Below, one piece after another: positions 49,611 to 51,800 of a stretch of DNA of 64,000 nucleotides (position 1 is its first letter; each line of letters starts with the position of its first letter). A model generated the notes under the pieces. The model was not told where the DNA came from, made no database searches, and saw only the letters and a list, made by a program, of their open reading frames with translations. Source of the stretch: Shewanella violacea DSS12 (GTDB taxonomy: Bacteria; Pseudomonadota; Gammaproteobacteria; Enterobacterales; Shewanellaceae); the NCBI RefSeq assembly GCF_000091325.1, contig NC_014012.1:496001-560000 (forward strand), in the 5' to 3' direction. The position numbers and the translations under genes are program-made.

Positions 49611-50156
49611 ATGGTTGTAGATGCAAACAATCTCATTTGGGTAGATTTAGAGATGACAGGGTTAGATCCCGAGACCGATAGGGTCATAGAGATCGCAACA
49701 ATAGTGACAGATAAAGAGTTAAATATTCTTGCTGAAGGACCTGTAATTGCGATTCATCAGACTGATGAACAACTTGCAACAATGGACGACTGGAACCAAA
49801 AGCACCATGGGGAGTCAGGATTAGTCGAGCGAGTGCGTAGTAGTCAGTATAATGAAGATGATGCCATTGCAATGACCATAAAGTTTATTTCTCAATATGT
49901 CCCTCAGGGCGTATCACCTATGTGCGGTAACAGCATAGGGCAAGATAGACGCTTTATGAATAAGTACATGGGAAAGTTAGAAGACTATTTTCACTATCGT
50001 AATATAGATGTAAGTACCATCAAGGAACTTACTAGACGTTGGAAGCCAGAGCTTATGGACGGCTTTACTAAGCAAGGAACACACAAAGCTCTAGTGGATA
50101 TCCAGGAATCTATTGCCGAATTGCAGTATTATCGAGCAAAAGTATTCAAAATTTGA
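49611..50156 (+). CDS. orn: Oligoribonuclease
   Basis: DEDDh 3'-5' exoribonuclease that clears 2-5-nt RNAs and pGpG, the last step of c-di-GMP turnover; 181 aa. ExoI is WVDLEMTGL, Exo[12 protein letters not shown], and Exo[14 protein letters not shown], giving all catalytic acids and the His. It is followed by tRNA-Gly genes, as in E. coli where glyVXY follow orn. Confidence 0.97.
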
Positions 50157-50185
50157 CCAAACAGACATTTATTTTCAAGAAGGGG

Positions 50186-50213
50186 TTGCAGCAATATGAA
50201 ATTCTCCTATAAT
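50186..50213 (+). promoter_or_regulatory. Promoter of the tRNA-Gly array
   Basis: -35 TTGCAG (50186-50191), 16-bp spacer, perfect -10 TATAAT (50208-50213), followed by a GCGGCC discriminator typical of stringently controlled stable-RNA promoters. It lies 52 nt before the first tRNA-like element. Confidence 0.65.
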
Positions 50214-50264
50214 GCGGCCTCAACTTTTGCTGCTTGTGCAGTATAAGCTTGTAGAGAAAATTCA

Positions 50265-50345
50265 GCGATATTAGCTCAGTTGCTAAAGGTGATAGACGAT
50301 ACCTTAAGTGATGTTTACAGTTTAAGTTGTTTGAAAGGAAAATTT
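50265..50345 (+). other. 81-nt tRNA-like element preceding tRNA-Gly 1
   Basis: Begins GCGATATTAGCTCAGTTG like the tRNA 5' half, then diverges (CTAAAGGTGATAGACGATACC..). It lacks an anticodon arm and T-arm of normal form. AAGGT/ACCTT can pair. It ends at the base before the first tRNA. Four such elements exist, all 81 nt. Confidence 0.7.
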
Positions 50346-50421
50346 GCGACATTAGCTCAGTTGGTAGAGCGATACCTTGCCAAGGTATAGGTCATCGGTT
50401 CGAACCCGATATGTCGCTCCA
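50346..50421 (+). tRNA. tRNA-Gly(GCC), copy 1
   Basis: A 76-nt cloverleaf with 7-bp acceptor stem GCGACAT/ATGTCGC, anticodon loop TTGCCAA (anticodon GCC), T-arm ATCGG-TTCGAAC-CCGAT, and encoded CCA. It decodes GGC and GGU. Location after orn as in E. coli glyVXY. Confidence 0.98.
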
Positions 50422-50467
50422 AATTACAACTTAGAGATTTACCAAGGTCTTTAAGAAAAAGTTTTAA

Positions 50468-50548
50468 GCGACATTAGCTCAGTTGCTAAAGGTGAAAGAC
50501 GATACCTTTTGTGATGTTTAAAGTTGAAGTTGTTTGAAAGAAAGATTT
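50468..50548 (+). other. 81-nt tRNA-like element preceding tRNA-Gly 2
   Basis: GCGACATTAGCTCAGTTG, then CTAAAGGTGAAAGACGATAC and following. AAAGGT/ACCTTT gives a 6-bp stem and GACAT/ATGTT a possible closing stem. It abuts tRNA 2 directly. Confidence 0.7.
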
Positions 50549-50624
50549 GCGACATTAGCTCAGTTGGTAGAGCGATACCTTGCCAAGGTATAGGTCATCG
50601 GTTCGAACCCGATATGTCGCTCCA
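50549..50624 (+). tRNA. tRNA-Gly(GCC), copy 2
   Basis: Identical to copy 1 over the 76 nt, including the CCA end. It opens a 320-bp unit that is repeated from 50869. Confidence 0.98.
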
Positions 50625-50639
50625 ATTTAAAAAGATTAA

Positions 50640-50740
50640 GCGACATTAGCTCAGTTGACTCTTTGTTTAGAGCAAAAGGGCGACACCTTGCCAAGGTATA
50701 GGTCATCGGTATTTTGTTTCGAATCCGATATGTTGTTTCA
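50640..50740 (+). pseudogene. Expanded tRNA-Gly-like copy 1 (101 nt)
   Basis: Follows the tRNA sequence but with insertions in the D-loop, before the anticodon stem, and in the T-loop, while acceptor, D-stem, anticodon stem and T-stem remain largely pairable. GCC anticodon retained. The anticodon stem has one mismatch (GACACC) and the acceptor end is GTTGT with TTCA in place of TCCA. Probably not a working tRNA. Confidence 0.7.
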
Positions 50741-50787
50741 ATCTAGATTTAAAGATTTACCAAAATCTTTAAATGAAAAAGTTTTAA

Positions 50788-50868
50788 GCAACATTAGCTC
50801 AGTTGCTAAAGGTGAAAGACGATACCTTTTGTGATGTTTAAAGTTGAAGTTGTTCGAAAGAAAGATTT
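50788..50868 (+). other. 81-nt tRNA-like element preceding tRNA-Gly 3
   Basis: Begins GCAACATTAGCTCAGTTG; the A at position 3 makes the possible AACAT/ATGTT closing stem fully paired. It abuts tRNA 3 directly. Confidence 0.7.
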
Positions 50869-50944
50869 GCGACATTAGCTCAGTTGGTAGAGCGATACCT
50901 TGCCAAGGTATAGGTCATCGGTTCGAACCCGATATGTCGCTCCA
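50869..50944 (+). tRNA. tRNA-Gly(GCC), copy 3
   Basis: Identical to copies 1 and 2. Starts exactly 320 bp after copy 2. Confidence 0.98.
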
Positions 50945-50959
50945 ATTTAAAAAGATTAA

Positions 50960-51060
50960 GCGACATTAGCTCAGTTGACTCTTTGTTTAGAGCAAAAGGG
51001 CGATACCTTGCCAAGGTATAGGTCATCGGTATTTTGTTTCGAACCCGATATGTCGTTTCA
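50960..51060 (+). pseudogene. Expanded tRNA-Gly-like copy 2 (101 nt)
   Basis: Same insertions as the copy at 50640. Here the anticodon stem (ATACC/GGTAT) and T-stem (ATCGG/CCGAT) are perfect and the acceptor stem has only a G-T end pair; the 3' end is TTCA, not CCA. Confidence 0.7.
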
Positions 51061-51107
51061 ATCTAGATTTAAAGATTTACCAAAATCTTTAAATGAAAAA
51101 GTTTTAA

Positions 51108-51188
51108 GCAACATTAGCTCAGTTGCTAAAGGTGAAAGACGATACCTTTTGTGATGTTTAAAGTTGAAGTTGTTTGAAAGAAAGATTT
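51108..51188 (+). other. 81-nt tRNA-like element preceding tRNA-Gly 4
   Basis: Essentially identical to the element at 50788 and again directly abuts a tRNA. It is the same position in the second 320-bp unit. Confidence 0.7.
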
Positions 51189-51264
51189 GCGACATTAGCT
51201 CAGTTGGTAGAGCGATACCTTGCCAAGGTATAGGTCATCGGTTCGAACCCGATATGTCGCTCCA
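51189..51264 (+). tRNA. tRNA-Gly(GCC), copy 4
   Basis: Identical to the other three copies. Starts exactly 320 bp after copy 3. No obvious intrinsic terminator follows. Confidence 0.98.
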
Positions 51265-51343
51265 ATTTTCCTCCCATTCCCTCTTCGATATGTAACTTCC
51301 AATTTAAAACTTCCAATTTAAAACTTCAATTTAAAAAGATCAT

Positions 51344-51457
51344 GCGACACTAGCTCAGTTGTGCCCATCTATTCAGATAGTAAAGAAACGATACCCTCAT
51401 TTTTCAAAGCTATAGCCTATCTGGTAAGAATTCGCGGTTCGAAGCCCTTTGGTTTAA
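51344..51457 (+). pseudogene. Decayed tRNA-Gly-like remnant
   Basis: Starts GCGACACTAGCTCAGTTG and later has CGGTTCGAAGCCC, recalling the T-arm, but the anticodon region is lost and there are long insertions. It looks like an older expanded copy. The rest of 51458-51800 holds no recognised element. Confidence 0.5.
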
Positions 51458-51800
51458 ATCAACAACTCGATTGAATCTCACTCTTGATTCAAAACTCTTA
51501 TCATCCCAGCTTCAATAGATCTCTAGAGCATCTCGTTAAACAGTAAATCTCTACTAACTAATGTCTTCCAATCTTGCTCTATATGCCTCCTGCAGATCTC
51601 GCTCTTCAGCTATTTTATATCTATGTCACCTTTCTGTTGTTTACGTGACGAAGTGCGAATTTCTTAAGCTGTATCTTGATGCAATCTGCTTAAAAGTAGA
51701 AAAATTTGATCTTGTTCAAATAACCCACGGCTTTTTATCCCCATAATAGCTTCTGAAGTAATTACTTTGACTAACTTTTGTTAGGTTTAGGAGTGTAAAC

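Follow-up and report, generated by a model that had tools for sequence, protein, structure and literature searches.

A conserved tRNA-derived leader element directly upstream of tRNA-Gly genes in Shewanella violacea and its relatives

In the tRNA-Gly array behind orn of S. violacea DSS12, each of four tRNA-Gly(GCC) genes is directly preceded by an 81-nt element that begins as a copy of the same tRNA. Comparison of sequences among relatives indicated that this is a real, conserved leader element of tRNA origin and more than debris, and the arrangement was not due to chance, since it recurs across the genus Shewanella and at a second locus. The reading favoured here, to which we would give a probability of about 0.45, is that the element is a selected leader hairpin that may act in cis on the folding or processing of the tRNA-Gly precursor. 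The analysis established its position, distribution, pairing and kept apical motif, and predicted a competition for a strand of the tRNA. The analysis was carried out on the window, that is the whole stretch of 64,000 nt (positions 496,001 to 560,000 of contig NC_014012.1), which lies within the single contig of 4,962,103 bases that makes up the genome. Searches of an open-access library brought up no publication on these elements.

Organization of the array behind orn

The ORF at 49611..50156 (forward strand, as are all features of the window given here), which from its sequence we take to be orn (oligoribonuclease), is the upstream neighbour of the array and served as the query for orthologous loci. 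In E. coli, too, a tRNA-Gly operon lies downstream of orn. A putative promoter for the array was read by eye at 50186..50219 (TTGCAG, 16 nt, TATAAT and the GC-rich discriminator GCGGCC) and was absent from the output of the consensus promoter scanner; its motifs and GC-rich discriminator were also identical in nine further Shewanella orn loci. The four identical tRNA-Gly(GCC) genes at 50346..50421, 50549..50624, 50869..50944 and 51189..51264 were found in agreement by ARAGORN and Rfam. As the initial annotation had reported, the elements A1 (50265..50345), A2 (50468..50548), A3 (50788..50868) and A4 (51108..51188) are each exactly 81 nt long and abut these genes without a gap. They scored 87.1, 92.5, 92.3 and 92.3 bits, respectively, with model R1, which was built from sequences that included them, and elements 2-4 sit in near-identical tandem units.

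All four elements carry the described copy of tRNA bases 1-18 with 0-1 mismatch, although it is exact only in A2, with C5T in A1 and G3A in A3 and A4. The view that they simply diverge after base 18 had to be given up: past an insert, AGACGATACCTT corresponds to tRNA bases 21-33 minus one G, and the remainder beyond it is unlike the tRNA and A/T-rich at its end. Likewise, the statement that every tRNA-Gly is preceded by an element is true of the array in the window but does not extend to the genome's remaining two tRNA-Gly(GCC) genes (2167307 and 2491368), upstream of which no head was found at ≤4 mismatches.

Two further kinds of tRNA-like element were recognized by sequence reading. The B-type element at 50640..50740 is a tRNA-Gly with inserts in the D-loop and T-loop, which was called by neither ARAGORN nor Rfam, and its second copy lies at 50960..51060 within the 320-nt tandem unit. 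The C-type element, a degenerate copy, follows the last tRNA at 51344..51470 (end approximate). B-type copies recurred in many Shewanella orn arrays (among others L009, L029, L031, L032, L034 and L042), often between intact tRNAs, and the one at L032:5594-5685 (offset 1051 after orn) was labelled tRNA-Ser(AGA) by ARAGORN, which is likely an annotation trap. C-type copies followed the last tRNA in many arrays (among others L006, L007, L008, L021, L028, L048 and L053), often sharing, as judged by eye, a T-rich run close to the anticodon and, ahead of the 3' end, an additional stretch that resembles a hairpin.

Several known families and systems were considered for the leader element and rejected. 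The tRNA model (RF00005) gave no match on any of the four elements, the relaxed threshold included, and among the families of Rfam 15 the four tRNAs alone matched at the gathering score; weak matches overlapping elements 2, 3 and 4 reached 19.4-20.3 bits versus cut-offs of 60 and 90.8. A T-box or other attenuating leader would have an intrinsic terminator before the gene, but a simple scan found no terminator-like site in 50100-51800, and no T-box match was obtained. A promoter within each element was rejected too: there was a single weak match (element 1), and shuffles of the region yielded more sites than the region itself. Like the element, the rtT repeats found in tyrT of E. coli belong to a tRNA operon and contain part of a tRNA, but theirs is the tRNA 3' end and lies downstream, whereas the element holds the tRNA 5' end and lies upstream. 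The pseudo-tRNA tRNA-Other of Bacillus cereus is similarly tRNA-derived, unused in translation and contained in a larger RNA; it differs in lying beside a pathogenicity island and being iron-responsive, and in the sections of that report consulted it is not described as a leader abutting its parent tRNA (PMC3399842).

Distribution in the genus Shewanella

Across 70 Shewanella orn loci, 86 elements of 68-82 nt were detected, of which 66 stood directly before tRNA-Gly and 20 before another head. Strain ANA-3 (L043) and S. decolorationis S12 (L035) are among the carriers of the element in the orn array. When GATA and a spacing of 60-95 nt were required, an A element was found immediately before 72 of the 194 tRNA-Gly genes in 71 orn arrays (the 70 loci plus the window), and it was the first unit in 38 of the 70 orn arrays that have any head. 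In this count four A elements preceded neither an intact tRNA nor an A element, three of them, by reading, lying before units cut at a contig end (L019, L069, L070) and one before a degenerate copy (L023). The tRNA-anchored pattern matched 85 of 129 Shewanella genomes and the reversed control none; among the matches listed, at least four genomes (G040, G044, G052 and G077) had a tRNA-tRNA pair, in each case next to a genuine element. Of the 129 genomes, 75 were matched by the core pattern and one by its reversed control.

Among 394 genomes of the order, the core pattern matched 22, namely 21 of 30 Shewanella and one of 364 others (G137), where the usual loop was absent and the match was taken as chance. 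The pattern spells the Shewanella tRNA-Gly, so relatives behind a different tRNA sequence could stay hidden. With the covariance model of the long class under strict filters, which missed short-class Shewanella such as G046, one borderline match outside the genus was obtained (G169, E 0.0088). In ten outgroup loci (L071-L080; two Paraferrimonas and eight Vibrionaceae), the Shewanella head at ≤4 mismatches marked tRNA starts and two other heads, one more than 1,000 nt beyond the array (L071) and one close to a contig end (L079).

A second locus was revealed by 20 stretches with matches away from orn. In 19 of them, from 18 genomes chosen for a core-pattern match outside orn, the element abutted tRNA-Gly(GCC), and the twentieth stops at a contig edge. 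The clusters were Gly-Cys-Leu in 17 genomes (18 stretches) and Gly-Leu in one. Gly-Cys-Leu elements formed two larger groups apart from the orn elements in the tree, the topology being taken without support values, while L146, L148, L151, L155 and L158 fell among the orn ones. The initial annotation had named random sequence and length in relatives as the outcome that would count against a function; the lengths found were 66-82 nt, with 92 nt in two loci, and the sequence was non-random.

The element was also frequently missing. No anchored match occurred in 44 of the 129 Shewanella genomes, and in eight of 11 genomes selected because their orn array lacks the element, the anchored pattern matched nowhere in the genome. 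Presence varied between close relatives as well (L002 has one element and L003 none). The frequent absence and these differences speak against strong selection on presence. Copy number shifted by whole units (x-80-x-80-T; T-124-T versus T-124-x-80-T), and copy numbers from drafts are lower bounds, since draft contigs often end inside the orn array (L005, L012, L018, L027, L047 and L063, among others).

Hairpin structure, covariation and apical motif

Both the long class (78-82 nt) and the short class (68-72 nt) of elements formed one long hairpin, with the tRNA copy as its 5' arm. The head (7-12) pairs with the tail, positions 15-26 pair with 38-50, and GAT lies inside the apical loop; helices 7-12/57-62 and 15-26/38-50 gave most of the support. 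The term tRNA-like is therefore apt for the origin of the element and not for its fold, as a cloverleaf was unsupported. For the long-class alignment, 30 of the loci's 38 unique long elements were combined with the window's four, without L009, L015, L037, L069, L070 and the first elements of L014, L021 and L038; L069 and L070 were also omitted from the tree and from the head-substitution, head-change, shuffled-tail cluster and chimeric-fold analyses.

In the long class, 86.7% of cells were paired, compared with 32-52% with slid partners and 85.0% after shuffling of the 3' letters among sequences, and in the short class 89.4% compared with 88.4% shuffled; as shuffled letters pair nearly as often, the percentage mostly reflects column make-up. 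Sixteen cells of the long class were changed on both sides, which was reached by none of 500 shuffles, and all five covariation measures exceeded nearly all shuffles (≤2 of 500 reached them), whereas three of the five failed to beat shuffles in the short class. Departures in the tail arm kept pairing in 91 of 178 cases, where a random base would give 46.3, and in 61 of 123, where it would give 32.0, about twice the random level. The structures came from summed pair probabilities of the very sequences counted, which favours them in the pairing, covariation and tail-arm counts, and all of these count sequences and not independent events. RNAalifold gave almost no consensus in either class, because the tails shift register.

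Measured against shuffled tails, the fold z averaged -1.63 over 46 clusters, 40 of them negative. Taken singly (a test from which L012 was left out), the four elements of the window gave p values of 0.60, 0.13, 0.11 and 0.055, none below 0.05, and hence the case rests on the relatives. Taken alone, the energy of the head-tail duplex hardly surpassed that obtained with shuffled tails (mean z -0.80; 7% of 89 elements at p < 0.05). The actual head substitutions perturbed the fold by a mean of 0.06 kcal/mol, compared with 0.68 kcal/mol for identical changes placed at other head positions (p 0.012; 67 substitutions, which are non-independent).

The pairings proposed in the initial annotation were compared with this fold. 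AAAGGT/ACCTTT was right, with 5 bp in element 1. The proposed closing stem GACAT/ATGTT (columns 3-7 with 49-53) did pair in 88.1% of cells over 34 elements, but with zero double changes, and a competing closing stem, GCGAC/GTTGT, was 76.5% paired, its double changes being matched or exceeded in 75 of 500 shuffles and hence no better than chance. The effects ascribed to G3A (G-T to A-T) and C5T (wobble) are compatible with either candidate. The closing stem is thus weak, has a competitor and is uncertain. Judged from the alignments, the element appears as a structured leader whose pairing is preserved by changes in relatives, clearly in the long class and weakly in the short class and in the closing stem.

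Apical GATACC was kept in 83 of 84 unique orn elements (79 of 80 picked by head and spacing only, plus the four of the window), with L069 as the exception. The mean pairwise difference was 0.00-0.015 in apical GAT, compared with 0.26-0.43 for the preceding part of the loop and 0.43-0.49 for the linker. The tRNA itself has AGAGCGATACC, whereas 46 of 82 orn elements have AGACGATACC and the tRNA form was present in none of those read, so the conservation is not easily put down to copying from the tRNA. Because GATACCTT was required by the pattern that retrieved the Gly-Cys-Leu elements, these do not count toward its conservation. Together, the conserved pairing and the loop motif make the element look selected rather than random debris.

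Head changes clustered at acceptor positions 1-7 (43 of 67; 23 of 36 among cluster representatives). At non-head sites, first elements differed by 0.19 on average, compared with 0.35 at fourfold sites of orn, over 31 close, non-independent pairs (fourfold difference ≤0.45, gaps excluded); the element was more different than the fourfold sites in three of the 31 pairs, and the upstream leader was more conserved (0.10) than the element.

Competition with the tRNA and possible roles

The copied head can compete with the tRNA for its partner. The predicted acceptor-stem probability was 0.97 for the tRNA alone or behind one real spacer and averaged 0.80 behind shuffles of that spacer. Behind the element it fell to a mean of 0.36, because the copied head captures the 3' strand of the tRNA (probability 0.57). 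With shuffled tails the values worsened to 0.17 for the acceptor (p 0.0007) and 0.72 for capture (p 0.012), which suggests that the real tail protects the tRNA. The chimeric state averaged 2.5 kcal/mol below the native state (sd 3.2) and was the lower one in 90 of 110 elements, the native in 20, where a strict cloverleaf, which lies 2.1 kcal/mol above the minimum of the tRNA itself, stood for the native state, and the energies exclude tertiary contacts and transcription order, both of which should favour the native state. With the G3A of elements 3 and 4, the native state was predicted to become the lower one. That the energies predict a lowering of native tRNA folding by the element (0.36 versus 0.97 or 0.80) counts against the favoured reading.

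According to that reading, a tandem copy of the tRNA-Gly 5' half would have arisen early in Shewanella, probably once, gained a D-loop insert and lost its 3' half. The element would be transcribed within the precursor, where its 5' arm, the copied front end of the tRNA, may pair with its own tail ahead of tRNA synthesis. Most likely it would act in cis, as a module for folding and processing the tRNA-Gly precursor: once folded, it would keep the copied arm away from the tRNA acceptor stem, and a short A/U-rich linker would separate the two folded domains, a geometry of the kind that tRNA precursors offer to RNase E and RNase P. The RNase P cut at the mature 5' end of the tRNA would release the element. 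As far as the portions of the reports consulted go, direct entry of RNase E uses single-stranded segments next to folded tRNAs, and the E. coli glyVXY precursor is cut by RNase E in vitro (PMC3985628), while pairing of a leader with the 3' RCCA inhibits a step of RNase P (PMC9433436). The glyVXY and argX-hisR-leuT-proM precursors of E. coli, handled by RNase E and RNase P, share with the Shewanella array the single-stranded segments between folded units and differ from it in that a tRNA-derived leader hairpin is absent from their description in those portions (PMC3985628).

The main rival, which is quite possibly correct, is that the elements are useless duplicates held in check. Slippage, or unequal crossing-over involving the 18-nt heads, would add and remove partial tRNA copies; only copies that sequester their own copied arm would survive, pairing would be kept to avoid harm, and recombination with the tRNA would refresh the head. 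Copies in front of other tRNAs bear on this explanation. Among 109 of the 127 tRNAs found in the same genome, scanned in 20 stretches, the own 18-nt head at ≤5 mismatches occurred 51-115 nt upstream of eight: two Lys, two Leu, one Pro, one Thr and two Arg. The Arg cases were near-full copies plus a spacer, unlike the 5'-half copies, which abut tRNA-Leu(TAG) (two of 83 nt, L098 reverse strand 1656 and 1910), tRNA-Lys (94 and 95 nt, L091 391 and 681), tRNA-Pro (99 nt, L101 reverse strand 655) and tRNA-Thr (78 nt, L103 reverse strand 501). By reading, these six have inserts in the D-loop region, and their tRNA resemblance fades in or near the anticodon loop. The Leu pattern matched 18 of 129 Shewanella genomes and its reversed control none; of these two forms, the ones searched across the genus, the Gly form was the more widespread.

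Abutting 5'-half copies before Leu, Lys, Pro and Thr imply that the way of origin is general, and hence the arrangement alone needs no Gly-specific use. The caveat of the initial annotation, that co-duplication would also preserve the phase, is valid for the same reason and in view of the gain and loss of whole units. Movement in whole units and frequent loss, the predicted reduction of capture by the tail and the concentration of head changes at acceptor positions all suit useless duplicates. This explanation nevertheless leaves it unexplained that unpaired apical GAT is kept while the neighbouring loop and the linker vary, and of the six copies before other tRNAs, protection by the own body was predicted in only two (Leu1 and Thr1) and capture in three (Lys2, Leu2 and Pro1).

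Other arrays of the genome held longer degenerate copies of their own tRNA as well, in L091 (Lys), L092 (Arg), L096 (Glu), L093 (Met) and L106 (Asp). In the tRNA-Glu array L096, CTCTTT, which we take to resemble the boxA core, occurred 11 times in sense and once in antisense against 0.8 expected from shuffles, and nine other arrays counted had 0-3. Antitermination of long tRNA transcripts is conceivable from these repeats and worth a look.

It is rather unlikely that the precursor works as a two-state switch. Its segments would be the copied head (1), the tail (2), the tRNA head (3) and the tRNA 3' strand (4); pairing of 1-2 with 3-4 would let the tRNA be made, and pairing of 1-4 with 2-3 would block it. 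Temperature, a protein on the apical GATACC loop or tRNA fragments could then gate the maturation of tRNA-Gly(GCC), and tRNA-Leu, Lys, Pro and Thr may have acquired the same device.

By analogy with the 3'ETS of E. coli leuZ, a gene that is part of a Gly-Cys-Leu operon, the element might instead be a small RNA or sRNA sponge freed from the precursor by RNase P, which seems unlikely. The leuZ 3'ETS is not known to be a tRNA copy. RNase P would make the 3' end of such an RNA, the hairpin with its kept loop would fit, and spacers of tRNA operons can act as sponges according to the sections consulted (PMC8166272); on the other hand, the kept apical bases derive from the tRNA, and exact abutment to it would be unnecessary. 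The two cases would share a non-tRNA RNA cut from a tRNA precursor, and they differ in that the 53-nt leuZ 3'ETS lies 3' of its tRNA in the text consulted (PMC8166272) and the element 5'.

Random debris of array duplication with fortuitous pairing is largely refuted and very improbable: the near-identical tandem units of elements 2-4 and the lack of single-element significance in the window would suit it, but relatives conserve the length, the pairing and the loop, and a second locus exists. The initial annotation's rejection of debris is thus supported by occurrence in most Shewanella genomes searched, two unlinked tRNA-Gly loci, kept pairing and a near-invariant loop motif. A scar or target of a mobile element using the tRNA-Gly 5' end is scarcely credible: head repeats do flank the unit like a duplicated site, but its body holds tRNA-derived bases 21-33 and the ORFs of ≥60 aa between orn and 51801 are short, none of them an integrase or transposase by eye.

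If the leader hairpin is real, the front half of a tRNA gene would have found a second use as a conserved leader, controlling or guarding how that very tRNA matures, and bacterial tRNA-array "pseudogenes" could be selected structures. If the elements are instead useless duplicates, selection would be keeping useless tRNA copies folded out of harm's way.
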